This document shows positions 1 to 19,129 of a stretch of DNA of 64,000 bases, one piece after another (the stretch's first letter is position 1; the number at the start of each line of letters is the position of its first letter). The notes beneath the pieces are model-generated. The model did not search any database. It had not been told where the DNA came from and worked only from the letters and a program-made list of their open reading frames with translations. The position numbers and the translations under genes are program-made. This DNA comes from Nitratireductor indicus C115 (lineage in GTDB: Bacteria > Pseudomonadota > Alphaproteobacteria > Rhizobiales > Rhizobiaceae). Where the stretch lies: assembly GCF_000300515.1 (NCBI RefSeq), contig NZ_AMSI01000007.1, positions 124,001 to 188,000 on the forward strand, written 5' to 3'.

Positions 1-2669
1 GCACTACGGGTTTGCGAGGGCTGTAGCCGCCAGGGCGTCAGCGGTGTCACGGGCAACGGCGCAGCAGCACCGAATCGCAGCGCTGAGGCTGTCGCACCGC
101 CTGGGTACTCGGTAAATCCCGCCTCTTCAGGCAGTTGCGTGATCCGCGCCGGGCAATCCACGCCATTGATGCGGAGGCTGCCCACCCCGATCTGCGGCGC
201 GCAAGTATCGGACAGGATATGAAACAGGTTCATAGCCTCGGGCGCGTCTTCTTCGCGGTCCTTCAGAAAACCCGGCCATTCCAGCACCAGCCGGTCACGG
301 GCACGGGTCAGGGCGACATAGAGAAGGTTTTTCGCATTGGCTTCAAAATCGGCGCGACGGTCTTCGATAAAACGGCGGGTCGCCTCGGGCGCGGCAAAGC
401 CAGGCGTGTGGATCAGGCTCGCGGACCCTAGCACCACCGCCATATCGTCGATGCGGTCCAAGGCATCGAAACGGGTCGCAGTGGTCCCCGCACGTTCCTC
501 GATACCATAGTCGAACTCTGCGACGACAGTGATCGGCCATTCCCGCCCTTTGGAGGCATGCCAGGTGACGATCTCCACGGCCTCGGCGCTGTTGGCGGAA
601 GGATCGGGATGACGGTCGAAATCGCGCTCGCCTCCACGGGCGTCGAGCCAGCCGAGAAAGACCTTGGCAGTCTCGCCGTGGAACCCCGAGGCGGATTTGA
701 GATCGCGATGCGCGGCTTCGAACTCACCCGCCTCAGCCTCTAGCCGCATAAGATCGGCGCGGGATTGGGCGGCGTCAGGCTGACGTTCGGCCCAGAGGCG
801 CAGGCCGGCGGCATCCAACACCAGATCAAGGGCCGCACCCACCGGCAGGCGGGCCAAAAGGTTCGACAGAGCGGCGAGCCGCATCAGCACCGGGTCATCC
901 ACCAACCGCCCTTCCATTTGGGCGGATAGCGCCTCCTGCAAGGACAGTGGGTCCGGGCCAAGCGTGCGCAAGAGTAGCCCAGCATGGATATCCGCCGGAT
1001 TGGCGGCAAAGGCCAGCGCGGCGCGGGCGGCAACAATCACCGGACTTTTCGCCCAGCCATCCTCGGCGATCCGCACCGGAACGCCGCGCGCGCGCAGTTC
1101 CTCGGCATAGCGGGCGGCGGTGGTGTGGCGACAGACCAACAGCGCGATATCCGAGGGCCGAGCCGGTCGGGCGGCCTTCGTGTGGCGGTCGGTGATAGTC
1201 TCAGTATCAGTCAGGATACGGGCGATGCGCTCGGCGATGTGTTCTGGGGGCTGCGAATACTTTTGTGAGCGCCGTCCCTGCGTAGCGTTCAGCACCTCGA
1301 TCGCGGGACCTGCGACCGCATCGCGGGTCGGCACCAGCGGGTTATAGGCCTGCCCAAAGAGGCCAGCCCCCATCGCATTGACGAATTGCATGATGGCTGG
1401 GGTCGAGCGCCAGTTGCGGTCCAAAGGCTGGGTCGCATCGGGATTTGCCGCCGCCAGCGCTGTCGATAGGCGCGGATCGGCGCCCTGAAACCCCATGATC
1501 GACTGTTTGACATCGCCCACCAGCAGTGTGCGCGGCGCGTGCTGGCCCAGCTGCCACAAAAGCGCGAATTGCACGGGGTTGGTGTCCTGGAATTCGTCGA
1601 TGATGACGCAGTCGATCTCGTCCAGCACCGCTTGCCGCACGGCGAGGTCGGTGCGGAGCAGGTGCTCAGCCCCGGTGATCATGTCAGCAAAGTCGATCAG
1701 GCCGAGCGCCTTCTTGCGGGTCTCATAGGCCGCCATCACCTCTTGCGCGCAGGCGATTAGGCAGGACAGGTGCAGCTTAGCATCGGCCAGCGGGCCGGGA
1801 TGGCAGGGCAGCACATCCGCCGCCGCCATGATCGCCGTGGCAAGGTCGTCATATCCCGCAGGCGTCTTGCTGGAGCGGTTAGAGATGAACAGGCTGCGCA
1901 GATCGTTCCAGACCTGCCAATCCCGATCCAGAAGATCGGGCGCGCGATCAACACGTTTGAAAAGCGCGAGGTTTTTCTCCAGCTTCTCGACATTGGTTTT
2001 GGCGGTGATCCCGGCCATGCCTCCCTCGGGAAAGGCTGCGATCATGACCTGCACGGCCGTCTGCAACGCGGTGGTCGCGGCGATAGGGTCATCCAGAACC
2101 GGCCCGTAAACCGCATCCAGCCGCGTCAGTGCCGGAGCGATCAGGCCAGCGTCACGCCCCTTGTCCCCAAGGCCGCGCAAGAGGTCGATCATCGATAGCA
2201 CCCGGGCGCGCAAACTGTCTTCGACCGTCTCGCCCTTCACGAAGTTCGGGGCGTAACCGAACCGCTCGGGCGCGGCCTTGATCGGGTCCAGCGCCTTGGC
2301 ATGTGCCAGTGCCTGACGGATCAGCAGATCCCGCTCGGCATCGCCCAGATGGCGCGGCTGCGGCGAGGCGCCAGCCGCCAGAGCATGTTCGGTCAAAAGC
2401 CGCAGGCCCAGTCCATGTATGGTCGAGACATAGGCGCGCTCGACCGCCATCGCCTCGGCGACCAGTCCATCGGCCAGAAGGCCGGCACGGATCCTTTCGC
2501 GCAACTCGCCAGCCGCGGCCTCGGTAAAGGTGACGGCAAGGATACGTTCGGGCCGGACAATGCCGCGTTTCACCCAATCGGACAGCTGGGTCTTGATGCG
2601 GTGGGTCTTGCCCGCGCCGGCACCCGCGGGAACGATGACCAGACCTTGATCTGCATTGACGGGGGCCAT
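1..2669 (-). CDS. UvrD/AddA-like superfamily 1 helicase, BREX-associated (3' end beyond window)
   Basis: This reading frame stays open from its start to the left edge, so the C-terminus is unseen. Superfamily 1 motifs are clear in the translation: Walker A PAGAGAGKTH near residues 10-20, DEFQDTN (motif II), GDVKQSIMGFQGAD (motif III), WHASKGREWP (motif V) and YVALTRARDRL (motif VI). This order is typical of UvrD, RecB and AddA helicases. Two starts are possible. ATG at 2675 overlaps the upstream stop as ATGA, while ATG at 2669 has GAGGAGG seven bases upstream and is preferred. The gene is coupled to the AddB-like nuclease before it and follows a BREX operon in the same direction. I infer that the pair is a helicase-nuclease complex processing DNA ends, probably for defence. 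It could instead be a housekeeping addAB, but the partner is short and the context argues against that. Confidence 0.85.
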   Translation of the reverse strand, partial: MAPVNADQGLVIVPAGAGAGKTHRIKTQLSDWVKRGIVRPERILAVTFTEAAAGELRERIRAGLLADGLVAEAMAVERAYVSTIHGLGLRLLTEHALAAGASPQPRHLGDAERDLLIRQALAHAKALDPIKAAPERFGYAPNFVKGETVEDSLRARVLSMIDLLRGLGDKGRDAGLIAPALTRLDAVYGPVLDDPIAATTALQTAVQVMIAAFPEGGMAGITAKTNVEKLEKNLALFKRVDRAPDLLDRDWQVWNDLRSLFISNRSSKTPAGYDDLATAIMAAADVLPCHPGPLADAKLHLSCLIACAQEVMAAYETRKKALGLIDFADMITGAEHLLRTDLAVRQAVLDEIDCVIIDEFQDTNPVQFALLWQLGQHAPRTLLVGDVKQSIMGFQGADPRLSTALAAANPDATQPLDRNWRSTPAIMQFVNAMGAGLFGQAYNPLVPTRDAVAGPAIEVLNATQGRRSQKYSQPPEHIAERIARILTDTETITDRHTKAARPARPSDIALLVCRHTTAARYAEELRARGVPVRIAEDGWAKSPVIVAARAALAFAANPADIHAGLLLRTLGPDPLSLQEALSAQMEGRLVDDPVLMRLAALSNLLARLPVGAALDLVLDAAGLRLWAERQPDAAQSRADLMRLEAEAGEFEAAHRDLKSASGFHGETAKVFLGWLDARGGERDFDRHPDPSANSAEAVEIVTWHASKGREWPITVVAEFDYGIEERAGTTATRFDALDRIDDMAVVLGSASLIHTPGFAAPEATRRFIEDRRADFEANAKNLLYVALTRARDRLVLEWPGFLKDREEDAPEAMNLFHILSDTCAPQIGVGSLRINGVDCPARITQLPEEAGFTEYPGGATASALRFGAAAPLPVTPLTPWRLQPSQTRS

Positions 2670-2671
2670 GG

Positions 2672-5218
2672 TCATTCCTCCTCGAGCGTGCGGATGAAGG
2701 CGGTGACCAGGGCCGAGCCATCGGTCAGCGCATAGGGGGTGAAGCCGGCTTCTTTCTTGAAGAAGGCCGCATCCTCAGAGGTGTTCAGCACGACCCGGCC
2801 TGCACCAAGTTCGGCCAAGCGTTCCGCCAGCTTGGCTACCGCCCCTGCATTCACCGCATCGCCCATGTCGCGAGCGGGCGAGCCCTCGGGCAAGACCAGA
2901 CCCGAAGTCAGCAACCCGCCATCATTCATCAGGTGATAGGCGACCGCCACCTTGCGGCCGATCAGCGGGTCCATGCCGTCACCCTCGCGCCGCATGGGCC
3001 GCGCTATCATATCGGCGTAAAGCCCTGCCTGCAGATCCCAGCCCGCCTCCATCCGCTGCCGTCGGCCCTTGGTGCCGCTTTTCTTGTGATCGATGATCAA
3101 GAGCGCACCATCAGGCAGTTCAAGGATCGCGTCGGCCTTGCCATGCAGATTGATGCCATGCGCCTCACCGGCCAGCCAGATTTCATTGCCGATGATCTTG
3201 GCATTGAGCGCCAGCAAGTGGTCGCGCCAGCGCAGGGCCGCCGCCATGATCTCACGCTCCAAACCGCGGCGCTCCATCTCCCATGACGGGCTGCGCAGAT
3301 AGCCCGCATGACGGGTGAGCGCGCGGTCATAGGCCTCGGGGATCAGTTCTGCCAGCGCCTCGGTTTCCGGGAACGGCTGATCCTTCAGGAAGACATGCTC
3401 AAAGACATCATGGGCGATATTGCCCCTTGCCATCACGTCGAGTTCTTCGGTCGACCAAGACATATCCTCGGCCCCAACCTCAGCCAGAAGCCAGGCGAGC
3501 GGGCTGACAAGCAGCGTCTCGAGCCGTGAGGGCGATTGCGGTTTGGCGGTGCCGTCATCGCGCCGACGAAGGGACAGAAGGTCATGCCCCGGGAAAGCAA
3601 GCTCCTCAGGCAATTCCGCGGGTTCCGGCACCGGCATCAGATGGTGATACGCAATCGGCCATTCCGCAGGGCTCTGACGCGACAGATCGGTGATCAGATC
3701 GCTGGCATCCTCAACGCCCGCCACCGCCCGCGCCACCAGCGACAACCCGGCCGAAGGTTGCAAGCGCCCGCCCGCCAGATCGCGCCATGGGATGAGGAAG
3801 GTGACGCTGCCGGAAACCGCCTGAAGCTGTTGATCAAGTAACGCGAGGCTTTGCGCCAGCCCCTCGGCCCGACCGCGAAGATGAACGCCGGTTCCCGCGT
3901 GTATCGCAGCGATCTCGCTGTCAAGAAACAGCGGATTGGCACGCGGGCGAGTCGGGTAAAGCCCGTCGGTGAAATCGCTGACGATCAGATGGCGGCATGG
4001 GCGCCACGGGCTTTCATGCGCGGACCAGAGGCTGACGCCTTCAAGATTGCGGTCGGGGTCCGCAACCATGGGCGGCGCGATCTGAATGCCACGCAGGATT
4101 ATCTCCCAATCCGGCGTGCCTTCGCCGGGGGGGACAGTCAGCCGCGCGCGGACCTGATCGCCTTTTCCGATCCGCTCGCAGATCCGGTCCAGCAGGAATC
4201 GCAGCTGCGGCAAGCTGCCGGCCGAGGCGCGGATATCGTCCCACAGTTCCTTATGTGCGGGCGTGTCCGTGAGGATGGCGCCTCGGAAATCGCCACCCAT
4301 GAGGCTTTCGGCAAGATCGCGCCCGGTCTGTGCCGCCCAGGGCATCAAGGGAGAAAGCGCGAGGCTCGCCAAGACCATAGCCGGAGTTGGCGGTCGCTTG
4401 GCCAGCGCCAGATGTAGCGCGGTCTCGCCAATGACATCTCGCTCGGGTAATTGGCCCGGAAGGCCCGAGAGCGGCACTCCCTGGGCTGAGAAAGCGCGCG
4501 CGATCTGGCGCAGATCATCGCCCGACAGCACGGCAATTTCACAGGCCGAAACGCCGGACTCAATCAGCGCCCGGGCTTGGGCGGCGGCGAAATCGGCGCA
4601 GGCGGCAGGATCGCGCAGACCATAGAACGCGAGGCTGTCATCCAGAACCCCGGCCTCGATATCCTGTGCCGAAACACCGCCCTGCAGCGCGTGCAGGCAG
4701 CTGCCGATTGCGGCCCGGGGCGTATAGGCGCTTGCGGGAACAGTGCCGAACTCGTCCCGCAACCGGGCAAAAAGCGCCTGCAGCGCCGCAGGAGCTAGAG
4801 GATCCAGCGAACCTTCAACCACCGGCAACGAGCCCAGGAACGCCCCATGCGGCAGGGCCAACACATGGGAAATCGGTGCCAGCCCCTCTGGCAGCGCATC
4901 CCCCAACCTTTGCCACAACGCGACCAGCGCCAAGAGATGCCGCTTGGCGCGACTGTCTGGCAGGTGATCGACATTCGGCACCTTCAGATCCGGCGTGGCC
5001 AGCACAAGATCCGTCAGCGCGGCAGTCACCGCCGAGATCGTCTCGACAGGCGCATTGGCAAGACTTTCGGCCCAGACCGGGTCAGGCGTCTCGGCAATGG
5101 CACGCCCCGGCGCCCATTCGGCAGAAATGGGGGCAAGGGACAATTCGGCAAGACCGGTATCGGTTAGGCGGTATTGCAGGCCGGAGCGCGGATCAATGAC
5201 GAGGAAGGGGTAGTGCAT
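2672..5218 (-). CDS. AddB-like protein with C-terminal PD-(D/E)XK (RecB-type) nuclease
   Basis: The 848-aa protein ends with a RecB-family nuclease core: GNIAHDVFEH (conserved His), then GKADAILE, IIDHKKS and an LQAGLYAD helix near residues 605-745. These match the H, D, D-x-K and Q-x-x-x-Y motifs of the family. The middle, including DGLYPTRPRANPLFLD, resembles the inactivated helicase half of AddB. No Walker A motif is visible at the N-terminus, and the protein is shorter than the roughly 1000 aa usual for chromosomal AddB. It precedes the AddA-like helicase with an ATGA-type overlap and lies 124 bp after brxL, read in the same direction. The probable role is the nuclease subunit of a two-subunit end-processing enzyme attached to BREX. 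That role is an inference from gene order. Confidence 0.8.
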   Translation of the reverse strand: MHYPFLVIDPRSGLQYRLTDTGLAELSLAPISAEWAPGRAIAETPDPVWAESLANAPVETISAVTAALTDLVLATPDLKVPNVDHLPDSRAKRHLLALVALWQRLGDALPEGLAPISHVLALPHGAFLGSLPVVEGSLDPLAPAALQALFARLRDEFGTVPASAYTPRAAIGSCLHALQGGVSAQDIEAGVLDDSLAFYGLRDPAACADFAAAQARALIESGVSACEIAVLSGDDLRQIARAFSAQGVPLSGLPGQLPERDVIGETALHLALAKRPPTPAMVLASLALSPLMPWAAQTGRDLAESLMGGDFRGAILTDTPAHKELWDDIRASAGSLPQLRFLLDRICERIGKGDQVRARLTVPPGEGTPDWEIILRGIQIAPPMVADPDRNLEGVSLWSAHESPWRPCRHLIVSDFTDGLYPTRPRANPLFLDSEIAAIHAGTGVHLRGRAEGLAQSLALLDQQLQAVSGSVTFLIPWRDLAGGRLQPSAGLSLVARAVAGVEDASDLITDLSRQSPAEWPIAYHHLMPVPEPAELPEELAFPGHDLLSLRRRDDGTAKPQSPSRLETLLVSPLAWLLAEVGAEDMSWSTEELDVMARGNIAHDVFEHVFLKDQPFPETEALAELIPEAYDRALTRHAGYLRSPSWEMERRGLEREIMAAALRWRDHLLALNAKIIGNEIWLAGEAHGINLHGKADAILELPDGALLIIDHKKSGTKGRRQRMEAGWDLQAGLYADMIARPMRREGDGMDPLIGRKVAVAYHLMNDGGLLTSGLVLPEGSPARDMGDAVNAGAVAKLAERLAELGAGRVVLNTSEDAAFFKKEAGFTPYALTDGSALVTAFIRTLEEE

Positions 5219-5342: not shown

Positions 5343-7424
5343 CTAAAGGTTCTCGACATAAGTCACGTAGAAACCACGGACCATCCGGTGCTCCTGCATC
5401 CGTTCTCCGAGCGAGAAACCGTTCATCTTGCGAGGCGTTGGCTGGAAAATATCCAATCCGCGATCCAGAACCATCTTCCAGCCGGTATCCGTCGTGATGT
5501 CGCGTGCATGGAGAGTGCCGCTCCCATCAAAGGCCCATGTGAAATCGACGCCCGTGCCTGTGCAGGCTTCAGCAATCCCGTCCAGGCACTCTCGCTGCTC
5601 CTGGATGTTGCCATCGTCCGGAGCCGTGACAAGATGCACCGCAACCTGGTCTTCGGGTTGCTTGCGCCTGATCAGCATTTCGATCAGTTCCATCACGTTG
5701 CGCGCCTGATGATACTTCCGGATGTACGGGTCGGTGATGATGATCCGTGTCGCCCCATCCGTCCACGGACCAAAGATCTTGTCGAAGCTGATGCCTTTGC
5801 GGTTTTCCGTGAAAACGACATGTCCAGGCTTTGGTACGAACGCAGGGGTAACGATATCAGCAGGTGCGTCAGAGGCGGCCGGTGTTGAGGACGGCTGCGC
5901 CGGGATCGGCGTGATCTCGGGTTGATCCTTACTGCCATCCCCATCTCTGGCAGATCGGCGATGGTAGAACTGAGGAAACTCCTCTTCCTCTAGGGTGGAG
6001 ACAGCGCGCTTTGCGCCATCCGAGGTGATGTAATGGAAGTCCGCTTCCTCGAAGGTGCTGTCGATCCGCAGGAGCTGGTCTTTCACCCGCTTGCGGCATT
6101 CAATCGCAAACCGCAGCAACTCTTCAACTTCGGCTTCTGTCTCGCCACCATTCGGGAAGATCAGCTTCAAAAGGCCTGACATGGTCTTGTTGATCGCTGC
6201 GCGGTCCCGGATATGGGTCTGAACTGGGACGGTAAAATAGCGATCCGGCCGGTGTGAGAAGTCCTCGGCACGCAGATGGCGCAGGATTTCGGCGAGATAA
6301 TCAACAATGAACCCATAGCCAGATGTGAACATCTCACCCCGGATGATGTCGACCTCCCATCCGGGCAAATAGGCATGCAATCGATCAATAAAGGCGCTGT
6401 CGTGGAACTGCGGCGGCAGAGCTTCGAAGAGGTCGGTATTTTTCAGCATCCAAGGCACGTTATGGTCCGTGTTGCCGACAAAGGCGAAGCTGGCCTCGGC
6501 GCCCATCGGATTTACACCACGAGAGAACTGCTTGTTCGCCATGTAGTTCTTCATGATATCTACGAGCGCCTTGTTGGCCGTCTTCTCGCGGCCGGCAAAT
6601 TCGTCAAAGGCCACGACATCCCAAAAGCCGACCAATCCGATCCGGCCATTGGAATTGTTCACGAAAAGCTTGGGAACCGTGATTTCACCGCCCGAGATCA
6701 GCTGACCATGTGGTGAAAATTCGGAATAAATATGAGATTTTCCTGTCCCCTTGGGACCAAGCTCGATGAGGTTGTAGTTGCGCTCAACAAATGGGACCAG
6801 GCGCAACAGTTGCAAAAGTTTTGACCGGCGCCCGAACAGTGACGGGTCAAAGCCGATGCTCTGCATCAGCAGATCGATCCATTCCTCAGTGGTGAACTTG
6901 TCCCGCGTCTCGCGATAGCCGTCATAGTCCACACGGGCGATCTGGATCGGCTTCAACGTGTCGATGATCCAGGGGGAGATCCGGCTGTCTTCCGAAAATT
7001 CGTACTGCACATCGGCGATGCACCAAATACCCGTAACCAGCAGTTTCGGGTGCGCCTTTACCGTGGCGCTGTCGATGGCAACCCGCTTGATACCGAGGTT
7101 CTCAAAGACCGCCTCATAGGCATCGGTCTTTTCATTCAGCGCCACGCTGACCTGATCGATGACCTTGTAGCGGCCACGCTCCTTGATCGTCGACTGGACT
7201 AGCCCCGCTTCCGAGCGATGGACATAATGTTTGCGCAGGATGTCCTTGACCGTCTCGATGCCTGTCGCGATCGAGGCTTCGTCGTCGGTGGCGCAATATT
7301 GGCCAAGCAGATATTCAAGAACATAGGTCGGGACGATGGCATTGCCCTTCACCGCCTTCACCAGGTCCTTGCGAACCACGAAACCGGCAAAATGCTCGTT
7401 GATCTTGTCATCAAGGGTCGACAT
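5343..7424 (-). CDS. brxL: BREX AAA+ protein BrxL with a MITD1-like C-terminal domain
   Basis: The N-terminal and central parts match BrxL, the AAA+ component of type 1 BREX, with Walker A GPKGTGKSH near residue 222 and AFDEFAGREK as the acidic motif. Canonical BrxL carries a Lon-protease-like fold at the C-terminus. Here, after a proline-rich linker near residues 500-535, the last 150 residues instead carry GISFDKIFG, DPYIRKYHQ, EMLIRR, HLVT, GWKM, RGLDIF and FSLGERM. These correspond in order to the phospholipase-D-like C-terminal domain of eukaryotic MITD1. I see no S16 serine-lysine dyad. ATG at 7424 is chosen because GAGG lies five bases upstream; a GTG at 7430 would add two residues. 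The gene begins seven bases after the pglZ stop. BrxL is needed for phage exclusion in characterised systems. Confidence 0.88.
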   Translation of the reverse strand: MSTLDDKINEHFAGFVVRKDLVKAVKGNAIVPTYVLEYLLGQYCATDDEASIATGIETVKDILRKHYVHRSEAGLVQSTIKERGRYKVIDQVSVALNEKTDAYEAVFENLGIKRVAIDSATVKAHPKLLVTGIWCIADVQYEFSEDSRISPWIIDTLKPIQIARVDYDGYRETRDKFTTEEWIDLLMQSIGFDPSLFGRRSKLLQLLRLVPFVERNYNLIELGPKGTGKSHIYSEFSPHGQLISGGEITVPKLFVNNSNGRIGLVGFWDVVAFDEFAGREKTANKALVDIMKNYMANKQFSRGVNPMGAEASFAFVGNTDHNVPWMLKNTDLFEALPPQFHDSAFIDRLHAYLPGWEVDIIRGEMFTSGYGFIVDYLAEILRHLRAEDFSHRPDRYFTVPVQTHIRDRAAINKTMSGLLKLIFPNGGETEAEVEELLRFAIECRKRVKDQLLRIDSTFEEADFHYITSDGAKRAVSTLEEEEFPQFYHRRSARDGDGSKDQPEITPIPAQPSSTPAASDAPADIVTPAFVPKPGHVVFTENRKGISFDKIFGPWTDGATRIIITDPYIRKYHQARNVMELIEMLIRRKQPEDQVAVHLVTAPDDGNIQEQRECLDGIAEACTGTGVDFTWAFDGSGTLHARDITTDTGWKMVLDRGLDIFQPTPRKMNGFSLGERMQEHRMVRGFYVTYVENL

Positions 7425-7431
7425 CGGCACC

Positions 7432-9939
7432 TCAGAAATCGAAATCTGTGCTGATCCCGCGCTTCAGCATCAGGGGCTGCGACGCGTGATCTTCGAAATG
7501 ACGGGTCTTGCCGATGCGCGTTTGCAGCTTCAGGAAGACTGTCTGATTGTTGTAGGTGTCTGCGGCCCGCGACAGCAGGAAGCTGTGCGACTGCTCGCGT
7601 TCGCGCGGGTTCTCGGATGCGAAATCAAACTCCAGCTCGGCTTCGTCAGAGATGAGCGTTCCATCGGCGGCAAAGATCGCAGCATGCACCTGTCGAGGCT
7701 GCTGCTTCTCGGTAACGGGCTCTGCCTGATAGAAGGTGACCTGAATCTGGCCCGTGGTGATCTGGGCACGAGCTGGCGGAATGATCTGCACCGACACTTG
7801 CCCGACATCCTCCTTGCGCTGCTTGCCGACTCGCAGAACCGGCAGGACAATCTCCTGCAGGCTCGCACCGCCATGGACAAAGCGGCTGCCTGATCCTTTC
7901 ACGCGCAGACGGTTGATCGAGTTCGGGATCAGGATGTCCTGATCACCGCCCAGCCCAAGCTGCGTGGCTGTGAACTTCTTCATGCCACCGCTGCTGCTGA
8001 GGCCCCGTCCGATCACATAGCGCCGGTTGCGCGTAACGATGTCTCCTTCCGGCTCGCTCAGCGCGAAGCCGCTCTCTTCCAAAGCCTTGTGCTGCCACAG
8101 GAAGCCATGGTCGGCAGTGATCAGGATGTTCGAGAAATTGGCCGAGGTCAGCTTACGCACCAGCTTCACCAGATCCTCGATGGCGGTCTCTGCGGCCGCA
8201 GGAACATTTTCCTCGGTGGCGAGCTTGTCGCCAATCGCGTCGATCTGATTGTGGTAGAGATAGAGGATATCATGATCCCGGAAGAGGTCCTTGCCCTCTG
8301 ATGAGCCGAGATTCATGAAATCCTTCGCCGCCAGAACCTTCACCCGGTCCCCTGCGCGGCCAGCGGCCAGCGCCTTTTCGCGGGCGGCAGCGCCCATGGT
8401 GCTTTCACCGTCCAGCAGCACCAGATCATTGTCATCGCGGATCGCCAGTTGCCGATGCGGCAAAAGCGCCGCCATGCCAAGCTGGGTATAGCTGGGCAAA
8501 GCCCCGACCATCGGCTTCAGTTCGGCGTCGAAGCGGTTCAGCTTGCGGATCTCGCGCAGCGCCTCTTCGGCCACCTCATAGCGCAGCGCGTCCGAGATGA
8601 TGACGACGACTTTCTGGTCCTTGCGGCGGAACTCCGCCGCCTGTTCCCGATAGAAATCCATCTGGCGCGGAAAGCCCGGAACCGCCCAGTCCGTCAGGCG
8701 CGATACCTGATCCTGCCAGGCATCGTTCAGCTTCAACACGAAATTCGTGGTATAGCGGTTCTCGACTGCTTCATAGAGCGCGGACAACAGCCCCGACTGC
8801 CCGCTTTTCTGCATGTGATAGATGAACTTGCGATAGAGCTGGTCCAGCCGGAACCAGCTTGCGGAATAGCGTTTTACCCCGTCTGACACGCTGGTCATGG
8901 TCAGGTCCGCTTCGGCCAGCGCCTGCTGGAACTCAGTCGCAAAGCCGATGGCCTGATAGACGTCCTCGTAACGGCCAAACCAATGGCTCTGGCGGCGGTC
9001 GCGCACCCATTTCAGCACATCTGTTCCTGCCAGGCTCTGCTGCGCCAGCCCTTCAACCAGGGCGACGACGATCCGCCGGTCCACTTCTTCGAAATGGTCA
9101 TGCGGGATCAGCTTGCGGAAATCGCGGGACGCCAGATCGTCCCTGATCTTCAGTACATCCTGATAGTTGCCCGACAGAGTCTCGAATGCCTCACCCCATC
9201 GGCGCGAGGCGCTCCAGCGGCGGAACATCAGCGCGGCATCGCTGTTCAGCCGCCCTTCCTCTCCCATCGCGCGCGCCCAGGCGCTGGAAAACAGCGTGAT
9301 GGCGAAATCCTGAAAATCCGGCTCGGCAGCCGTATAGCCATAGCGCGCGGAAACCTCTTTCCAGAAGAAGTCCGTCAGACCGGCCCGGTCCATCAGGCGC
9401 AGCGCATCATCATGGCCATCGGCGAGCTCCGCCAGCAACGCCTCGATCACCGTATCCAGATCGCCATCCGCACCGGCGCAGACGGCCAGCATCTTGCGGC
9501 GGACATCATTGGCGCTTTGCGACGGGCGCTCGCGCTCCATTAGCCGCAGCGCATCCAGCCGTTTGCCCGAACGGTAGAAATCGGCATGGTCGCGCACGGC
9601 GGCTTCGTATTTTGCCGGAATGCCCAGATCGGCCACCCAGATTGCCGCCTGATCGGCGCGGAAGACGGCACTGGCCAGTTGCACATCCAGCAGCCAGTTC
9701 TCAGGCATCGGCGGCTCGGGGCCGTCCTTGTAGAGCAGGAACCGCCCCTTCGGCTCCTGCCGCAGCATGCGGTATTTCAAGCCGAATTCGTTGTTGGCGA
9801 TCTCCACCTTTGTCACGCCGGGCAGGTCAACCGCATCGAACGCCCCGCGGAGATCACGGGCGGCGTCATACCAGAAGACAATGCGGTGCCCCTGATCCTC
9901 GTAGAGCCGCATCAGGCCGGAGGTGATGCGGTCAGTCAT
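7432..9939 (-). CDS. pglZ: BREX alkaline-phosphatase-like protein PglZ
   Basis: This 835-aa protein is the hallmark of BREX. It belongs to the alkaline phosphatase superfamily, seen here as VVVIISDALRYEV near residue 447 and ITADHGFLW near residue 608, which supply metal-binding Asp and His residues. The N-terminal part matches the BREX-1 'type A' architecture. The start overlaps the end of pglX by eight bases, showing translational coupling, and brxL follows immediately. In characterised type 1 systems PglZ is required for both host methylation and phage exclusion, although its biochemical reaction is not settled. Confidence 0.93.
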   Translation of the reverse strand: MTDRITSGLMRLYEDQGHRIVFWYDAARDLRGAFDAVDLPGVTKVEIANNEFGLKYRMLRQEPKGRFLLYKDGPEPPMPENWLLDVQLASAVFRADQAAIWVADLGIPAKYEAAVRDHADFYRSGKRLDALRLMERERPSQSANDVRRKMLAVCAGADGDLDTVIEALLAELADGHDDALRLMDRAGLTDFFWKEVSARYGYTAAEPDFQDFAITLFSSAWARAMGEEGRLNSDAALMFRRWSASRRWGEAFETLSGNYQDVLKIRDDLASRDFRKLIPHDHFEEVDRRIVVALVEGLAQQSLAGTDVLKWVRDRRQSHWFGRYEDVYQAIGFATEFQQALAEADLTMTSVSDGVKRYSASWFRLDQLYRKFIYHMQKSGQSGLLSALYEAVENRYTTNFVLKLNDAWQDQVSRLTDWAVPGFPRQMDFYREQAAEFRRKDQKVVVIISDALRYEVAEEALREIRKLNRFDAELKPMVGALPSYTQLGMAALLPHRQLAIRDDNDLVLLDGESTMGAAAREKALAAGRAGDRVKVLAAKDFMNLGSSEGKDLFRDHDILYLYHNQIDAIGDKLATEENVPAAAETAIEDLVKLVRKLTSANFSNILITADHGFLWQHKALEESGFALSEPEGDIVTRNRRYVIGRGLSSSGGMKKFTATQLGLGGDQDILIPNSINRLRVKGSGSRFVHGGASLQEIVLPVLRVGKQRKEDVGQVSVQIIPPARAQITTGQIQVTFYQAEPVTEKQQPRQVHAAIFAADGTLISDEAELEFDFASENPREREQSHSFLLSRAADTYNNQTVFLKLQTRIGKTRHFEDHASQPLMLKRGISTDFDF

Positions 9940-12900
9940 CCGCAGCCTCCAGCCCCTTGATCGGCTTTAGCGCGCCGGCGAACAGCGGATAGTTGCGCTT
10001 CACGCCGTCATCCAGATCGATGGCGATCTTCTGCTGCGCCATCGGATAGACGACATCGCGTTCCCATTCGGTCAGCTCGGCGATCTGCTTGATGACCGTG
10101 GCGGTTTCCTTCTGCGCCCTTGTTTGCTGGGCGGGCGTAGCGGCGGGATCGACGGCCAGCTTTTCCAGCCGGGCGCGCTCGACTTCCAGCTTGTGGATGA
10201 ATTCGCGAACATATTGGTTCAGCACGACCGAGACCGTGTCGGGCCGATAGCGATGCATATAGATCAGTGCGTTGAAGCTGCCCCTGGGGCTGGAGAACAT
10301 CCAGTAGATCGGGCGCTTTTTATAGCGGCGGACGTGATAGTCGAAGAAGTCCTTGGTGAACCATTTGCGCAGATCCTTGCCGAGCGCAGATTCGATGAAG
10401 GCGAGGTTTTCACGAAACTTCGCCTCGCCAAAGGTCACGCGCAGGAAATCACGGGTGCGGGTGACGATGTCATCGGCGAACCAGTCGGCATCCAGCACCG
10501 GGATAACATTGTCGCGGTCGGGGGCGAAGCTGGGCTCGGGCACACGGGCCAGATACTCCTCGATCCCCTCGCCCTGATTGGCAAGGATCAGGCCGGGCGC
10601 GTCGAGGCTGTAGCGCCCGAACATGCAGCCCACGGCAAAATGGAGGAATTCGGCCACCGTATCCTGCAAGAGCCGCGCCTCGCGTTCTTCTTCCGCGCCT
10701 TTCACGCCATAGCGATAGGCCGGGTTGCAGGTGAGGGTGATTTCCTCGACCGGCACTTCGGGCGTGAGTTCGTCCTGCAGGCCATAGGCGTCGATGAAGA
10801 TGCGGTTGTTCTCCTGTTCCAGCTGCTGCATCTCATCCGTCATACCCTGCCAATGGACCCGGAGATTGGCGTAGCTAGCCGCCAGTGTCTCTTCCCGGTG
10901 ATCGGGCGACAGCAATGGAAGCGTGGTAAAATCCCACGACGTTTCATAGGCGTCCCAGTCGGATTTCGTTAGATTGATGCAGCTTATCGCATTAGCGCTC
11001 GTCGAAGCTGAGTCAGCGACCTCGATCGGAATTACTGGAAATTTCGCAACATCCCCGGGCTGTAGCGATACAGTTGGATTAATTTGATACAGAATACTGA
11101 CGAAAATCTTCGTATTTAGTAGAGCAGCAAGGTATTGCTGCATGATGTCAGAGACAAAAATGCAGGCCCCCTTGTTGTCGAAGAGGAATCCATTGCCGAA
11201 GTAACGAAAACCAATATCGTTTGTCGAAATTGTTGACCACGTAAGGCCGGGTGAGAAATAGCTTCTCTCGTTGGCAATTACCGAGTGCGGAATTGCCTTT
11301 ATTTCACATCCATTTTTATACCAATTTACTACTGAATCATTTTGCCCAAACCAACGGCGAGATCCGCCGCCTTTGTTATAAGGTGCCCACTTCTTATTAT
11401 CTGCGTTAAATTTTTCGGCGCTTTCATAATCTAGACCTAGGGAATCTTTGGAAATTTCTGGCCAAAGCCGAACGAATTTTTCGTTATCTGTAGTGGTATT
11501 TCCTTGGCGTGGAACACTGATTGATCGGAGAGCTTCGAAGCTACCAAAAGCGTCTCGCACCCCTTTGCTCAACCAGTATGCGATTGGTGACCCAGGGACA
11601 CCGACAAGCTCTTTTTGTGAGATATGGAAGAGGCAGTCGGTCGATCTACCATCGGCTACACCTAACAAAATTTCTTGTTTTTCAGCCTCATTTCGACCTC
11701 CTACCGCACGGATGAATGCCCCTGCATAATTGTCCTTGCTTCCATTTCGACAGACGAAGGCAGTGGTCGACACGACGGCGCCACTAATGGTATCAAAAGC
11801 GCGTTCTCCAAGATGTGCCATAGTAAGAATGGTGCCCTTGGAGAGAATGGTAGCCCTCAACTTTTCGAACGAAGACAGGAACATCCAAGACTGCATGTTG
11901 ATCATGGCCATGTAGCCGCTTTTCATGCATGCAGCCAACGAACGCTCCATGAAAAGTGCAAAGAGATCCGTTCGGCTATCTGGATAGGTTTTGTCTGTCC
12001 ATTTCTTGAGAACAGGGTTCATGTTGCGCGCGCCCATATACGGCGGGTTCGCAACCACTACGTGATAGTTCGGCGACAACACCTCGGCCATGCGTAGCAC
12101 TGCCACGACCCGTTCCTGCACCTCCTTCAGCAGGAGGTCTGAACCAAAATCCCGCGCCTCGACCACTCGCAGCGTCTCGGCCGGGTCGCGCAGTTTCGGC
12201 ACGATCAGCGACCCGAAGTTCTTGGCCTGCTCGAACTGTCCCAGCGTTTCGCGCAGTTCATCGGTGAACAAATCCTTGCCCACCACGGCGGCCACGTCCT
12301 GCATCTCGGCAGGGGTGAAGCGCACATCCTGCAGCACGACGATGTCGGGTTTCGCCTCCATCCGCAGGAACCGCCGCCGTCCCAGCATTGCCGCGGCCTT
12401 CATCGACAACGCGAACGCCGCCAGCGCCCCGGCGCGGTCGTCAATCTCAATCCCTGTCAGGTTATGCTTCAGGATCAGGCCAGGAATCTCGGCCGCGTCA
12501 TGGCCTTCCTCGGCATAGATTTCATAGAGCAGGTCAAAGGCGTAGGTCAGCATATGGCCTGAGCCGCAGGCCGGATCGCAGATGCGAATATTCTCGGGCC
12601 GAGTGATCTTCAGGAAATCCGTCTCGGGCTCCTCCGGCGCGATGTAATAATCCATCTTCGCCGCCAGCTTCGATTGCGGGCGGTTCAGCAGCCACAACCG
12701 CCCCAACGAGTTTTCCACCAGATAGCGGACGATCCAGTGCGGGGTGAAGAGCTGCGTCGCGGCGGGAATGTTTTCCGCCGTAATCTTCTGGTTCTTCTTC
12801 AGGCCCGCAAAGACCTGATCCTTCTTCTCGCTGATGTAGAACTGGTAAAGCCAGCCGATGATCTCGACATCCTGGCAGGCCTCTTCCGTCATCACCTCGC

Positions 12901-13447
12901 GCAGGCGTGCAAGGATGCTGTCCGGCGACAGGAGATCATCGGGCATCAGCAGTTCGGTATAATCCTCGGCCCGGTCGAGCATATCGGCGCGCTCGAACAT
13001 ATAGGGCATCGCGCCGTGCCATTCGTTGCAGGCATGGATCACCAGCAACCGATAGGCCTCCGCCTGCCCGTCATGGGCGGGACGGGTGCCGTTCAGATAT
13101 TCGGCAATCTCCGGCCGTGCACGATCCGGCAGGTTGCCGGCCATCGCCTCGGCCAGAATTTCAGGCCGGGTCGCGCCATCGGCGGGCGACACCACGCGCG
13201 GGTTGGTCAGGCCGGTCGCGTCCATGAAGCGCAGCGCGGTGAAGCGGTTGAACCATGTATAGGCTGCTTGCTCGATCACCTGCTGGCGGTTGCTGTTGGC
13301 GGCGGCTTCCAGTCTGGCGACTGCCTTGGGATGCTCCCGGCGACCCGCCGCTCCTTCGGCCAGCACCATATCCAGCCGGGCGGTAACCTGATCGATCAAC
13401 AGGTTGCGCGCGCTTTGGGCAAATTTCTTCAGGGCGTTGGTATCCAT
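9932..13447 (-). CDS. pglX: BREX adenine-specific DNA methyltransferase PglX
   Basis: At 1171 aa this has the normal length for BREX type 1 PglX. The AdoMet-binding motif DPACGSGHML lies near residue 293 and the catalytic NPPY near residue 467, as in N6-adenine methyltransferases. PglX modifies one strand of a non-palindromic site on host DNA and gives the system its specificity. DNA from about 10,960 to 12,060 is clearly AT-richer than both flanks. It encodes the segment after NPPY, where the target recognition region is expected, suggesting exchange of that domain by recombination. The start overlaps the brxC stop by one base (TGATG) and the end overlaps pglZ. Confidence 0.93.
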   Translation of the reverse strand: MDTNALKKFAQSARNLLIDQVTARLDMVLAEGAAGRREHPKAVARLEAAANSNRQQVIEQAAYTWFNRFTALRFMDATGLTNPRVVSPADGATRPEILAEAMAGNLPDRARPEIAEYLNGTRPAHDGQAEAYRLLVIHACNEWHGAMPYMFERADMLDRAEDYTELLMPDDLLSPDSILARLREVMTEEACQDVEIIGWLYQFYISEKKDQVFAGLKKNQKITAENIPAATQLFTPHWIVRYLVENSLGRLWLLNRPQSKLAAKMDYYIAPEEPETDFLKITRPENIRICDPACGSGHMLTYAFDLLYEIYAEEGHDAAEIPGLILKHNLTGIEIDDRAGALAAFALSMKAAAMLGRRRFLRMEAKPDIVVLQDVRFTPAEMQDVAAVVGKDLFTDELRETLGQFEQAKNFGSLIVPKLRDPAETLRVVEARDFGSDLLLKEVQERVVAVLRMAEVLSPNYHVVVANPPYMGARNMNPVLKKWTDKTYPDSRTDLFALFMERSLAACMKSGYMAMINMQSWMFLSSFEKLRATILSKGTILTMAHLGERAFDTISGAVVSTTAFVCRNGSKDNYAGAFIRAVGGRNEAEKQEILLGVADGRSTDCLFHISQKELVGVPGSPIAYWLSKGVRDAFGSFEALRSISVPRQGNTTTDNEKFVRLWPEISKDSLGLDYESAEKFNADNKKWAPYNKGGGSRRWFGQNDSVVNWYKNGCEIKAIPHSVIANERSYFSPGLTWSTISTNDIGFRYFGNGFLFDNKGACIFVSDIMQQYLAALLNTKIFVSILYQINPTVSLQPGDVAKFPVIPIEVADSASTSANAISCINLTKSDWDAYETSWDFTTLPLLSPDHREETLAASYANLRVHWQGMTDEMQQLEQENNRIFIDAYGLQDELTPEVPVEEITLTCNPAYRYGVKGAEEEREARLLQDTVAEFLHFAVGCMFGRYSLDAPGLILANQGEGIEEYLARVPEPSFAPDRDNVIPVLDADWFADDIVTRTRDFLRVTFGEAKFRENLAFIESALGKDLRKWFTKDFFDYHVRRYKKRPIYWMFSSPRGSFNALIYMHRYRPDTVSVVLNQYVREFIHKLEVERARLEKLAVDPAATPAQQTRAQKETATVIKQIAELTEWERDVVYPMAQQKIAIDLDDGVKRNYPLFAGALKPIKGLEAADD

Positions 13448-16400
13448 CAGACAATCACTTTCTTGCCCGCACCGATCTCGGCCAGCAGGGTCTTTTTCAT
13501 CGCATCAAGATAGCGGGTCACATCGTCCGCATCTTCGAGATAGGCTTTCCCGATAGAGACGGTGATCGACTGGGCGTTGACATATTGGGGCTTTGCCGGC
13601 GCCGGCGGCACATAGGGCGCTGGCTGAGGTTCGGCTACGCCACCGGCAGGCTGCGGCTGTGGTGCAGCAGCGGGAGCCGGTGCAGGCGTCAGTTCGGCGA
13701 TCCGAGTCAGCGTGTTAGCCAGAAGGTTGGACCGCGCCTCGGCTGCAAGATTGCGCAAGGCCGGGATCAGGCTCTGTGCGGCAAGGCCGGATTTCCGCGT
13801 GGCAAGCCCGTCGCGGATACGCGTCTGCTGTTCCGGCGGCAGCGCACGGAATTCGGAAGTCTGGGCGATTTTATCCGCCACCTCGTCAATCGCCGTGATG
13901 ACGGCGTTGCGCTCAGCCAGAACCGTTTGTTCGATGCGTTCCTTCAGGGCGTAGAAATCCGCCTTCAGTTCCTGAATGGCATTGCCCTTGAAGCAGTGCG
14001 GATCGGCCAGCGCCTGACGCAGCTTGTCGGCCGCAGAATCTCCGGCATAGGCAAGGTTCTGGTCCTGCGCGGCAAGGAAAGCGCGCACCTCATCGTAGAT
14101 GCCCTTCTGCGGCCCGGACATGAAGCTGCGGACCTTGTCGAGGATATCTTCCTTCGCATCGAGAAGCTGGTCTTCATGGCCCACCGGGCCGGTAATGAAC
14201 CAGGTCGCCGATTGATCGCGCATGTTGTCAAGTAAGGTCCGCAGCGGATCGAGAGCCGCGACGAAAGGATAGCCCGTCGCCTGCCGACCGAGCGTTTCCA
14301 GTTCGCTGGTCAGCTTGCGCAGCTGCGCCTGCCACTCCGCCCCCAGACTGCGGGCGTCATTGCCCGAGGCGGGCAGATCGAACAGTTCCTGAAACAGCTC
14401 GCGCGATTTGCGGATCTGGGCGGCGGTGAACTCGATCTGCGGGGAGAGCAGGATATTGCCAAGGGCATGGCTATTGCGCAGCTGCTGCACCAATGCATCG
14501 CCCTCCAGCAAAGCGCTGTCGGACCGGGCTTCCAGCTTGCCGCGCGCAACAAGGCTTGCGGTCAGGCAAAGCACCGCGATGGTAGGCCAGCCATAGGGTT
14601 TTGCGCCGAACTTCTCGACCAGAGCCTTGGCCGACACCCGCGTCCCAAGACGCATCTGGGCCTGTGCATGGTTGAACACATCCTGCTCGGCTTCGGTCAG
14701 GCCACTGCCTTCGCCGCCGAAAAGCCCGCCATCGACGCGGCCCGCGCGGCCAAGATCAGCTTCGGTGTATGTGGCGCCGCGCAGCACGGGCAGGCTGGTG
14801 TAGACCTTGTCCACCAGGACCTGGAATCCCTTGACCAGCCGCTCTTGTGGGTCTTCCCCGCCGATTTCCAGCTCGGTCCCCCGCACGAACAGCCGCGCAT
14901 CTGCGATCAGGCTGCGCAGGCGTTGGACCAGTTCCGTTTCACGTCGCGTATTCTGATCGCGCTTTTCCGCAATGATGCGATCGCGGCCGGGCTGGGCATC
15001 GCCACTGGTGACCTGACGGGCAAATTTTACGGTCTGCAGCCAGAGGACAAGATCGCGCGTGAAGCGCACGTCCCGCCCCAGCAGAACCACCATTTCATCG
15101 CTCGCCATGCTGTTGGAGCGGACCACATCCGGCGCGTCGGAATCATCGCTGAAGGGCGAGATGATGTTTACCGACAGCTCATACTCCCGGTTCAGGCTGT
15201 GCCCATCGAGCTTGCGGGTAAACGCATAATCGATGCCCGTGCCGGCATGCTTGATCTTGCCGTGACGGAGGATCGTTCCAAACGCCAGTTCATCGAGCTG
15301 TCGTTCGATCTCGGCGGGGTCAACCGCAATTGCCTTGATCTCGGCCTCGACGTCCTTTTCCTCATTGGTGAGGAATTCGTAGACCTCACCATTGCGCTGA
15401 ATCAGCGTCTGGCGCTCCAGCAGCGATAAAGCCTCTTCGATATTGCGGCGCTGCTCGGTCTGGTCCGCCTCGAACCGGGACAATAGCAGGATCGCAATGT
15501 TGCGGGCGGTCGGCTTGAATTCCTTGACGTATTTGACAAGGAACAGCGCCTTCAGCACTCGCACGGCAAAATCGTCGCCAAGGTTTCTTTCAGCCAGTTG
15601 GATCGACTGCTGAACCGAGGATTTGAGGGCGGTGCGGATGCCTTCAAACATCAGATCAAAGGTCGCCAGGCCTCCGACCGGCGCATCGGCCAGCTTTTTG
15701 GCCACCTCCTGAAACACGCCCAGCATGGAGCGTTCACCGACCGAGCTGTGCTTGCCCTCGAACGCGTTATGCTGGGAGAGGCCCATGATCGCACGCTGAA
15801 ACAGGTCGTACTGGTAGTTCGGGAACGGGTAGCTTGCGACGAACTGTTCTTTTCCGGAGAAATTCCTGAACTTGAAGGAATTGTCGCCAAAGTCGAACAG
15901 CGTGCGCAGGTTATTCTCCTCGGCATCGTACAGATTGCCAAGGGTGATCTGGCCCGCTTCGGTCTTGGCTAGCAGACGGCGCTGGATGACCTCGGCCACG
16001 TCCTGGGAGTTCAGCGGCATCCGGTTGGCGAAGCGCGCCTGAATTTTCGAGAAGTCATTCTCTTGTTGCGCCGTCAGATCTCCGATGACGGAACCCATGT
16101 CCTGCTGCGCGGTGACAACAATCCACGCCTGCCCCTTGCATTTGGTGTTCAGGCTTTCGGCAATGGTCTGCAGGTTCGTCATGAGCTTGACGTTGTCGGC
16201 GATATACTGCCCCACTTCGTCGACGAAGAAGTTCAGCCGGAATTTTGGACCCTGCGCATCGATCCAGGCTTTCACCATATTGGCGAAATCCTCGATCGAG
16301 ACCTTTGTGTCCTTGCGGTACTGGCCAAGAACATCCTTGACCTCATCACCGGTAACCTGTGCGAAGGCTGAAGCAATATGCTTGCCTTCCATCAGAGCCT

Positions 16401-16986
16401 GTTCGCGCCCCCGCTCCCAAGGCTTACCAGAGGCCTGAGCAAAGGCCTCCTTGAAGGCCTCCAGCTTGCCGCGACTGTCCAGATCTCGCTCGAACTGCGC
16501 GATATGCGGGAGCTTGCCATAATAGCCGCACATCTCGTCAAAGACCTTCTGGAAGACGGCGAGCAGCGCATCGACATCCGTCTTCGAGATCACATCCGCC
16601 TTCTGGTCAATATTGAACAAGACAGACCAGGAGGGAATCGACACAGCCTTACGCAGCGCGCCGGCCAGCATCGGATTGCCCTCGAGCTTGCGCTCAAAGA
16701 TTTCGACGGGGCGCTGCCCCTCGACCTCAGCATTTTCCAGCAGAAGGGCGAGCATCTTCAGGAGGTGTGATTTACCCGACCCGAAGAAGCCGGAAATCCA
16801 CACGCCATTCGCGGTGTCGTAGTTGTTGTAGGCGTCGAGGAATTGCTCCAGCCGGGCGCCGATCTCATTGGTGATGACATATTCATCGAGCTCGGTCAGG
16901 AGGCTGGCCTTATCGTCGGCCTTGATGACACCATCGATCGAACGGTCGACCGGCTTGGCGAAGATATCACGTAGTAGAGTAGCCAT
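13447..16986 (-). CDS. brxC: BREX P-loop ATPase BrxC
   Basis: This 1179-aa ATPase begins with the typical BrxC/PglY N-terminus and carries Walker A GFFGSGKSH at residues 66-74. A Walker B-like NFFVDEVGQY lies near residue 252. The protein is rich in charged helices, and a proline/alanine-rich linker near residues 1110-1145 precedes a small C-terminal domain. BrxC is an essential component of BREX methylation and exclusion complexes. The gene lies three bases downstream of brxB and shares one base with pglX, so it belongs to the same operon. Length and motif positions are normal and no disruption is seen. Confidence 0.93.
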   Translation of the reverse strand: MATLLRDIFAKPVDRSIDGVIKADDKASLLTELDEYVITNEIGARLEQFLDAYNNYDTANGVWISGFFGSGKSHLLKMLALLLENAEVEGQRPVEIFERKLEGNPMLAGALRKAVSIPSWSVLFNIDQKADVISKTDVDALLAVFQKVFDEMCGYYGKLPHIAQFERDLDSRGKLEAFKEAFAQASGKPWERGREQALMEGKHIASAFAQVTGDEVKDVLGQYRKDTKVSIEDFANMVKAWIDAQGPKFRLNFFVDEVGQYIADNVKLMTNLQTIAESLNTKCKGQAWIVVTAQQDMGSVIGDLTAQQENDFSKIQARFANRMPLNSQDVAEVIQRRLLAKTEAGQITLGNLYDAEENNLRTLFDFGDNSFKFRNFSGKEQFVASYPFPNYQYDLFQRAIMGLSQHNAFEGKHSSVGERSMLGVFQEVAKKLADAPVGGLATFDLMFEGIRTALKSSVQQSIQLAERNLGDDFAVRVLKALFLVKYVKEFKPTARNIAILLLSRFEADQTEQRRNIEEALSLLERQTLIQRNGEVYEFLTNEEKDVEAEIKAIAVDPAEIERQLDELAFGTILRHGKIKHAGTGIDYAFTRKLDGHSLNREYELSVNIISPFSDDSDAPDVVRSNSMASDEMVVLLGRDVRFTRDLVLWLQTVKFARQVTSGDAQPGRDRIIAEKRDQNTRRETELVQRLRSLIADARLFVRGTELEIGGEDPQERLVKGFQVLVDKVYTSLPVLRGATYTEADLGRAGRVDGGLFGGEGSGLTEAEQDVFNHAQAQMRLGTRVSAKALVEKFGAKPYGWPTIAVLCLTASLVARGKLEARSDSALLEGDALVQQLRNSHALGNILLSPQIEFTAAQIRKSRELFQELFDLPASGNDARSLGAEWQAQLRKLTSELETLGRQATGYPFVAALDPLRTLLDNMRDQSATWFITGPVGHEDQLLDAKEDILDKVRSFMSGPQKGIYDEVRAFLAAQDQNLAYAGDSAADKLRQALADPHCFKGNAIQELKADFYALKERIEQTVLAERNAVITAIDEVADKIAQTSEFRALPPEQQTRIRDGLATRKSGLAAQSLIPALRNLAAEARSNLLANTLTRIAELTPAPAPAAAPQPQPAGGVAEPQPAPYVPPAPAKPQYVNAQSITVSIGKAYLEDADDVTRYLDAMKKTLLAEIGAGKKVIV

Positions 16987-16989
16987 CGG

Positions 16990-17592
16990 TCAGACCTCGT
17001 AATTCATGATATTGAATGCACGATAATATTTGTCGTCTTGAAGCAAGCCGAACAATTCCAGCGAAGCTCCCGTCGCCAACGCATGCGTATATTTTCCCGG
17101 AAAGAATAGAACCGTCGGCCGATCCTTTGCGGTGCTTTGCAGGTTGTTGAGCACGTTATGAGACCGCAGGTAGGGGTAAACTTCGCCGACGCCCGACAGG
17201 AAGATCACATCATGCGGGGTCTCTTTAATGCGCCGCGCGATCTCGGGAATCAGATGGTCCTGCGGATCCAGAACACCCTGCAGGAGCTCCTTGAGTTCCG
17301 CCTTTTCCGTCTCGGCTTCGACCTCGAGAATCTGCTCAAGGATCCCTCTATCCTCCAATATTCCGAGTGAAAGGTCATAGAGGTCGATATCGAGCACGCG
17401 TACGCCAGCATGCCCCAGCCGGGCGATCAGATCCTCGCGGTCTTCGCCGAGGCTGAGCCCGTCCTCTGCATCAAAAGCGCAGATGAAAAATGGAACCTCG
17501 TTACCCAGCCCCCGCTTCTGCAGGAACCGCTCACTGGAAATCACCTTGAACAGGTGCTCGGCGCGCGCGCGCCGATCCGTCTTTGTACCCAC
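16990..17592 (-). CDS. brxB: BREX protein BrxB (DUF1788)
   Basis: The 200-aa protein matches the DUF1788 family by length and by landmarks such as FFICAFDAEDGLSL near the N-terminus and VLFFPGKYTH near residue 165. It begins with GTG two bases after the brxA stop and ends three bases before brxC. BrxB is a conserved small subunit of type 1 BREX. Its biochemical role is unknown, but its place between brxA and brxC is diagnostic. Confidence 0.9.
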   Translation of the reverse strand: MGTKTDRRARAEHLFKVISSERFLQKRGLGNEVPFFICAFDAEDGLSLGEDREDLIARLGHAGVRVLDIDLYDLSLGILEDRGILEQILEVEAETEKAELKELLQGVLDPQDHLIPEIARRIKETPHDVIFLSGVGEVYPYLRSHNVLNNLQSTAKDRPTVLFFPGKYTHALATGASLELFGLLQDDKYYRAFNIMNYEV

Positions 17593-17594
17593 AA

Positions 17595-18197
17595 TTACCC
17601 CCCATTTCCGGGAAAGACCCGTAGATCCGCCGGATTATTCTCCTCAATCAGCCGCTTCATGCGCCCCGACAACCAAATTGGCTGAATTCTGCCCTCGGTG
17701 TTTCTCAATCCGGCTTCACGCAAAATCCGAAACAAGACCTGACGCAATTTCGCGCATGTCGATGACGAAAGCTCAGCAAGACTCGGATCACTTTCCGCCT
17801 TGTCTGCGAGAAATCGGTCAAAGACCTCATGGCCCAGATCAAGCCGCCAGGACTGGTAACGCTCGCCGATCACCTCGACGGCGAATTCATGGACAAAAGG
17901 ATAGGTCCGGCAGACCGCCAGCCACATCATCGCCTGCTGCTCGGCGCGGTCAGCCTCTACCGACAGGTAATGACGTTCGGCATCGGAGAGATGGCCTATC
18001 CGGTCGTACACTTCACGAAGCGCGCGGGTTTGCGAGGCCAGTTTGGGTAAGGATGACGCGCCCTGGGCCAGCAAACGCTCACGAGCAGATGCCCAGTTCT
18101 CACCGGGTTGATAAGCTTGAGCAATCACGATGCTCTCATTGAGCATCAGCCCGCCCACACTGAAGGACATGCGGTATTTCGCTGCGGCCACCATCAT
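17595..18197 (-). CDS. brxA: BREX protein BrxA (DUF1819)
   Basis: This 200-aa protein is DUF1819/BrxA, recognised from KYRMSFSVGGLMLNES at the start, the central WLAVCRTYPFVHEF and the ending IWLSGRMKRLIEE. BrxA proteins are small DNA-binding helical proteins. The start overlaps the end of brxR (AAATGATG), so it is translationally coupled to the regulator. Two adjacent ATG codons (18197 and 18194) are both possible. It is the first structural gene of the operon. Confidence 0.9.
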   Translation of the reverse strand: MMVAAAKYRMSFSVGGLMLNESIVIAQAYQPGENWASARERLLAQGASSLPKLASQTRALREVYDRIGHLSDAERHYLSVEADRAEQQAMMWLAVCRTYPFVHEFAVEVIGERYQSWRLDLGHEVFDRFLADKAESDPSLAELSSSTCAKLRQVLFRILREAGLRNTEGRIQPIWLSGRMKRLIEENNPADLRVFPGNGG

Positions 18198-19096: not shown

Positions 19097-19129
19097 TGCT
19101 CGTCCCGCCGCACTTGAAAGGATAGAAAG

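Follow-up and report, generated by a model that had tools for sequence, protein, structure and literature searches.

A MITD1-type phospholipase D-fold domain in place of the Lon-like tail of a BrxL protein from Nitratireductor indicus C115

Introduction

How BREX (bacteriophage exclusion) systems stop phage is still debated, and the brxL gene of Nitratireductor indicus C115 raises the question of what the C-terminal module of the BREX ATPase BrxL contributes. We analyzed this gene (5343..7430, minus strand) in a stretch of 64,000 nucleotides (assembly GCF_000300515.1, contig NZ_AMSI01000007.1, positions 124,001 to 188,000), hereafter called the window. The tail of the encoded protein belongs to the MIT_C family (PF16565), as does the C-terminal domain of human MITD1, and it carries a conserved His/Arg site. 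A tail of this kind is present in approximately one third of the Type-1 taxa bearing BrxL (1030/2913, PMC12839542). Because the mechanism is debated and the tail is common, the site bears directly on whether BrxL acts on DNA.

Results and Discussion

Identification of the C-terminal domain

The window BrxL consists of 695 residues from a GTG start at 7430, or 693 from an alternative ATG at 7424. Residues 546–692 (5355..5795, minus strand, as are the other brxL features and the BREX genes given below) matched MIT_C at profile positions 1–141 of 142 with 130.2 bits against a cut-off of 25 (E 6.8e-38). A predicted model and a fold search assigned a phospholipase D (PLD) fold to this domain, and the closest fold and family in the profile and fold searches was the membrane-binding domain of MITD1. 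Unlike in MITD1 proteins, the MIT domain was not found among the Pfam matches of the window BrxL. TIGR02653, a full BrxL model that includes the Lon-like tail, was matched only at positions 3–475 of 675 (577 bits against a cut-off of 628). The protein matched TIGR02688, which needs no Lon-like tail, with 609 bits against a cut-off of 329.

The sequence-only reading had placed a MITD1-like PLD domain where characterized BrxL proteins have a Lon-like fold. The highly significant Pfam match, with which the model and the fold search agree, confirms this assignment. A search for a Lon-like match gave none: the Lon-tail profile matched neither L115, a copy of the window BrxL, nor any MIT_C row among the rows listed (L101 onward). 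A Lon-like chain was also absent from the 50 entries listed by VIA and from the 50 of 892 Foldseek rows listed, which we did not use as evidence. That the tail is really Lon-like and resembles MITD1 by chance is extremely improbable, being refuted by the profile E-values and the fold-search Z score as well as by the silence of the Lon-like profile on these rows.

Conserved residues

The domain was matched in 142 loci, three of which (L071, L086 and L119) covered fewer than 130 profile positions and were set aside. The remaining 139 loci gave 105 distinct sequences, which with the window row made 106 rows, among which near-copies and repeat fetches remain. Ten residues were invariant in all 106 rows: Y569, R571, Q575, H641, G650, W651, R657, G658, L659, and D660. 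Y569 and R571 lie in the DPYIR segment (residues 567–571; 5718..5732), and R657–D660 form RGLD (5451..5462). H641 belongs to an HxRx4D motif (H641, R643, and D648; 5487..5510), the spacing of which is that of the HKD motif, with Arg for Lys. R643 was found in 105 rows and D648 in 101, with Asn in four and Ser in one. The only row lacking the motif Arg, which has Cys, is that of a Tenacibaculum plasmid (L195:1947-3953); it keeps the His and RGLD. Human MITD1 has all of these residues, with Asn for D648. Judged from this alignment, a site under strong constraint in a defence protein is present in a human protein too. Either MIT_C and MITD1 would both bind a phosphate group without cleaving it, or an activity of MITD1 would have been overlooked.

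Linker length

The distance from the end of the AAA+ domain to the first tail column was 37–80 residues for MIT_C tails (median 69, n = 127) versus 15–16 residues for Lon-like tails (n = 29). In the window BrxL, the interdomain stretch (residues 466–545; 5796..6035) contains a Pro/Ser/Ala-rich linker that is probably disordered. The predicted local distance difference test score (pLDDT) was below 50 at residues 493–529 of the full-length model, which was poor at residues 222–364 and was used for the linker only. The tails of the solved Lon-tailed BrxL join two rings tail to tail, far from the DNA (PMC10164562). On its longer tether, MIT_C would be able to reach either DNA or another ring.

Exchange of tail modules

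Trees of the BrxL core were calculated from residues 1–476 only, a quick one with 62 rows and a careful one with 33 rows picked from these. MIT_C-tailed cores were located at three separate places: in the clade of the window, in a clade 2 (L121, L122, L123, L124, and L137) nested among Lon-tailed cores with the Lon-tailed L166 as sister, and at L176, whose long branch lies next to tail-less Type-4-like cores. The tree program flagged the placement of L176, a long row, as uncertain. A single grouping of all MIT_C cores was rejected by the approximately unbiased (AU) test (p 1.1e-5), and the same grouping without L176, a set chosen after seeing the tree, was also rejected (AU p 0.002). The three separate placements therefore support the view that tail modules were exchanged more than once between BrxL lineages, and the terminal swap that had been suggested for this protein agrees with a real module exchange. 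On these sequences the core tree shows exchange and does not give its direction. Both MIT_C-tailed and Lon-tailed BrxL are present in genome G399, and two MIT_C lineages in genome G669.

Relationship with human MITD1

In the careful tail tree (37 tails), a branch with a support of 100/98 separated human MITD1 and all five tails of clade 2 from the rest, and placing MITD1 with the clade of the window was rejected (p 0.0009). This tree covers a short domain and one eukaryote (human) and is unrooted, without an outgroup. The grouping was tested after it had been seen in an earlier tail tree, which placed human MITD1 together with L119, L176, and clade 2 (99/97); the final tree omits the badly cut L065 and L167 and the very long L119, and adds five plasmid rows. 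Clade 2 alone, without MITD1, had a support of 72/36, and positions of MITD1 inside and beside clade 2 were not separated by the tree.

The identity of human MITD1 to the clade-2 tails was 41–47%, and that within clade 2 was 38–71% (median 47). The identities of clade 2 to 25 main rows and of these rows to human MITD1 were 24–37% (median 29) and 26–36% (median 32; 32% for the domain of the window), respectively. The clade-2 tails are bacterial: each is part of a BrxL protein, and in the four of the five loci that were examined (L121, L122, and the regions around L123 and L137), a pglZ frame lies immediately upstream; two of the tails are on sequenced plasmids. MITD1 is about as similar to the clade-2 tails as these are to each other. 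We consider it an even chance that its membrane-binding domain entered eukaryotes from a bacterial BrxL tail of the clade-2 type. On this view, the domain would have originated as a portable anti-phage module that engages phosphate and would have passed several times from one BrxL lineage to another; it has been seen once on a dynamin-type GTPase, and its site residues would have been retained in MITD1.

Proposed function

We propose, with a probability of approximately 0.45, that the window BrxL is a BREX ATPase with a flexibly tethered MIT_C tail that engages phosphodiester groups and most likely cuts or holds foreign DNA. The BrxL ring would load onto foreign DNA with ATP, by analogy with what has been shown in print for Lon-tailed BrxL. 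The tethered domains would then engage phosphodiester groups through H641, R643, D648, and RGLD, and the engaged DNA would most likely be cut or held by the tails. In single-motif PLD nucleases, two domains form the working site; the site of MIT_C would probably also need two domains brought together. The tail is most likely a tethered, phosphodiester-engaging effector, for which nuclease activity is plausible.

Several observations weigh against this proposal. The Lys of the HKD motif is Arg in 105 of the 106 rows and Cys in the other, and GSxN of the catalytic HKD/PLD enzymes is not kept in MIT_C tails. A local hhalign comparison with 10 HKD domains from four genomes placed H/R/D on H/K/D without significance (probability 0.9%, E 0.059), and the global comparison gave nothing. 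(Two PLDc_2 matches in the genome of the window, L190 and L191, had no HKD motif by pattern scan, and proteins of other genomes were used.) The net charge of the domain is −4 in the window, −4 as the median of 25 main-clade domains, and −5 in the human protein. No broad basic DNA-binding face is therefore expected from this slightly acidic domain; such a surface was considered and is unsupported by the net charge. PMC6015221 describes human MITD1, which keeps H, R, and RGLD, as binding membranes. The Lon-like tail is reported to lack a catalytic dyad (PMC12839542), so the tail position does not require an enzyme. Furthermore, no structure or activity of a MIT_C-tailed BrxL was found in the literature examined.

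An alternative is a non-catalytic role, in which MIT_C pairs or binds a partner and joins rings like the Lon-like tail, with the site either holding a phosphate or shaping the interface. Related cores carry MIT_C and Lon-like tails in place of one another, and the replacement of Lys by Arg is in keeping with such a role. Crystals of MITD1 are reportedly of a dimer (Hadders 2012). The Lon-like tail, which reportedly lacks the dyad, provides the tail-to-tail contact between two rings (PMC10164562). However, a pure dimer contact would need no near-universal H, R, GW, and RGLD, and a linker of 37–80 residues is more easily reconciled with a tethered arm than with a rigid contact between rings; we regard this explanation as possible but rather unlikely. 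Less probable still is a membrane tether, in which MIT_C would bind acidic lipid as in MITD1 and bring the BREX complex to the site of phage DNA entry at the inner membrane. The nearest fold and family are those of a domain whose membrane binding is reported to be essential for abscission (PMC6015221), the site residues are common to both, and in one bacterial case a dynamin-type GTPase carries a MIT_C domain, but the domain is net acidic, and PMC10164562 shows BrxL on DNA, not on a membrane.

Distribution

Among 398 genomes of the phylum of the window, 17 had a BrxL ATPase over the cut-off, with seven MIT_C and 10 Lon-like tails; an eighteenth match below the cut-off was dropped. In 164 genomes from the phylum of an Opitutales contig, the 13 BrxL matches comprised five MIT_C, six Lon-like, and two tail-less proteins. 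The 21 matches in 16 of 163 genomes from the phylum of a Desulfobacteraceae contig comprised four MIT_C and 10 Lon-like tails, five tail-less or broken/partial frames, and two fragments left unclassed. With MIT_C as the query, sets of 398, 240, 369, and 247 genomes, each including a central genome already known to hold one MIT_C, gave 7, 7, 7, and 4 full-length matches, respectively, all 25 on a BrxL core; there was one fragment (L130) in addition, and weak matches were dropped. The genome collection held 356 stretches encoding MIT_C, of which 80 were kept for analysis. The supposition that the variant is peculiar to this BREX system did not hold: it is common in genomes, has a PADLOC profile, and is in print for the taxa counted above.

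A BrxL core was also matched in 102 of the 104 open reading frames with a tail match (103 loci; L008–L011 and L118 were excluded before the count). One of the two core-less frames, L086, is a 72-residue piece of a broken gene. L058:3104-3775 encodes the linker and tail only (BrxL residues 494–692), with no core found in its 13.8 kb; it is apparently a decayed locus remnant, or a MIT_C tail standing alone. Weak matches at profile positions 57–127 (L008–L011 and L131–L136) were removed from all counts; the eight that were read by eye (L008–L011, L131, L132, L134, and L136) are ABC-transporter ATPases, and L143, which resembles the weak matches in score and place, was dropped likewise.

No match to MIT_C was found in phage records at E ≤ 1. 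Nine contigs of the viral collection (L092–L100) encode MIT_C relatives. A MIT_C-tailed brxL on a plasmid of Hymenobacter sp. BRD67 (L120:10391-12432) is annotated as several broken pieces. On plasmid pTs485 of Candidatus Thiodictyon syntrophicum (L119:9631-12474), a 947-residue protein combines a Dynamin_N GTPase (2.8e-20) with a C-terminal MIT_C (2.7e-21) that keeps HxRx4D and RGLD. No BREX gene is annotated within 12 kb on either side of it, no match to its first 770 residues was found in the other plasmid records (E ≤ 1e-5), and no relative of the dynamin-fused domain was found in the viral contigs.

Gene organization

The window BrxL contains a BrxL_N domain (residues 12–143; 7002..7397; PF20442, E 3.6e-49) and an AAA+ ATPase domain (residues 154–465; 6036..6971; PF13337, E 4.9e-127). 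The latter includes GPKGTGKS (residues 225–232; 6735..6758), which we take to be Walker A and of which P226–S232 were invariant among 36 aligned BrxL sequences. The PADLOC profile PDLC02508 spans residues 3–694, and the domain is the single MIT_C match in the genome. Upstream on the same strand are pglZ (7432..9939), the methyltransferase gene pglX (9932..13447), brxC (13447..16986), brxB (16990..17592), and brxA (17595..18197), all identified with PADLOC and Pfam, followed by a gene for a WYL-domain protein (18194..19174; Pfam WYL), by its position a putative BrxR-like regulator.

In the 47 loci longer than 20 kb, a pglZ frame, in some cases partial, was always present and ended less than 200 bases from the brxL frame; brxC was present in 39 and pglX in 45, and some of the missing genes may lie beyond the flank that was fetched. 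The locus L045:8544-10468 is apparently decayed: its brxL frame is missing the first 200 residues and overlaps a fragment, the only part of pglZ there, that corresponds to the beginning of PglZ. Downstream of brxL in the window are an 848-residue PD-(D/E)XK protein and a reading frame leaving the window that is UvrD/AddA helicase-like by eye; the pair (3..5218) is AddAB-like by eye. It lies directly downstream in seven of the 47 relatives, from seven alphaproteobacterial genera, with 93–99% identity, which suggests a recent transfer of the whole island.

Comparison with known systems

The variant is already on record as a PADLOC full-length profile and in print. PMC12839542 describes a C-terminal 'HKD-endoDNase' that replaces LonP and infers DNA cleavage for the BrxL-HKD fusion with its HRD motif. 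This protein (PDLC02508) shares the N-terminal domain, the AAA+ core, and a PLD-superfamily tail with the HRD motif, and from motif and place we infer that its tail is MIT_C, although the article names neither MIT_C nor MITD1 and uses neither MIT nor ESCRT as a whole word. PF16565 also appears alongside BREX in PMC12715929. Searches of the open-licence literature found no report of a link between MITD1 and BrxL, of the grouping of MITD1 with one sub-clade, or of repeated exchange. Beyond what is published, the interest of the variant is evolutionary and stems from the conserved site of unexplained function.

The Acinetobacter BrxL (8EMC and 8EMH; PMC10164562) is homologous to the window BrxL over residues 5–476 (E 7.7e-140), whereas its tail is Lon-like and the linker of its type is 15–16 residues (29 rows) rather than 37–80. 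Type-4 BrxL is given as having 'no extension' (PMC12839542), whereas a BREX-4-like locus (L187; G1083 contig 44, 1-20000) encodes a MIT_C-tailed BrxL. This locus also encodes DUF4007/SspB-like, SspC/BrxC-like, and PglZ-like proteins, an Eco57I-type methyltransferase, and a Schlafen protein. The PLD-fold restriction nucleases SauUSI, NgoAVII, and BfiI have 7–9% identity to the window tail, in which Arg replaces the HKD Lys. With the catalytic HKD/PLD enzymes in general, the tail shares the predicted fold without HxKx4D and GSxN.

The C-terminal domain of human MITD1 (4A5Z and 2YMB) is fused to an N-terminal MIT domain, which binds ESCRT-III, whereas the window tail is fused to BrxL. MITD1 works with endosomal sorting complex required for transport III (ESCRT-III) in cytokinesis (PMC6015221). 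If the kinship holds with more eukaryotes, this cytokinesis factor would be a further eukaryotic part tracing to bacterial immunity, and the unexplained HxR/RGLD conservation in MITD1 would become testable.
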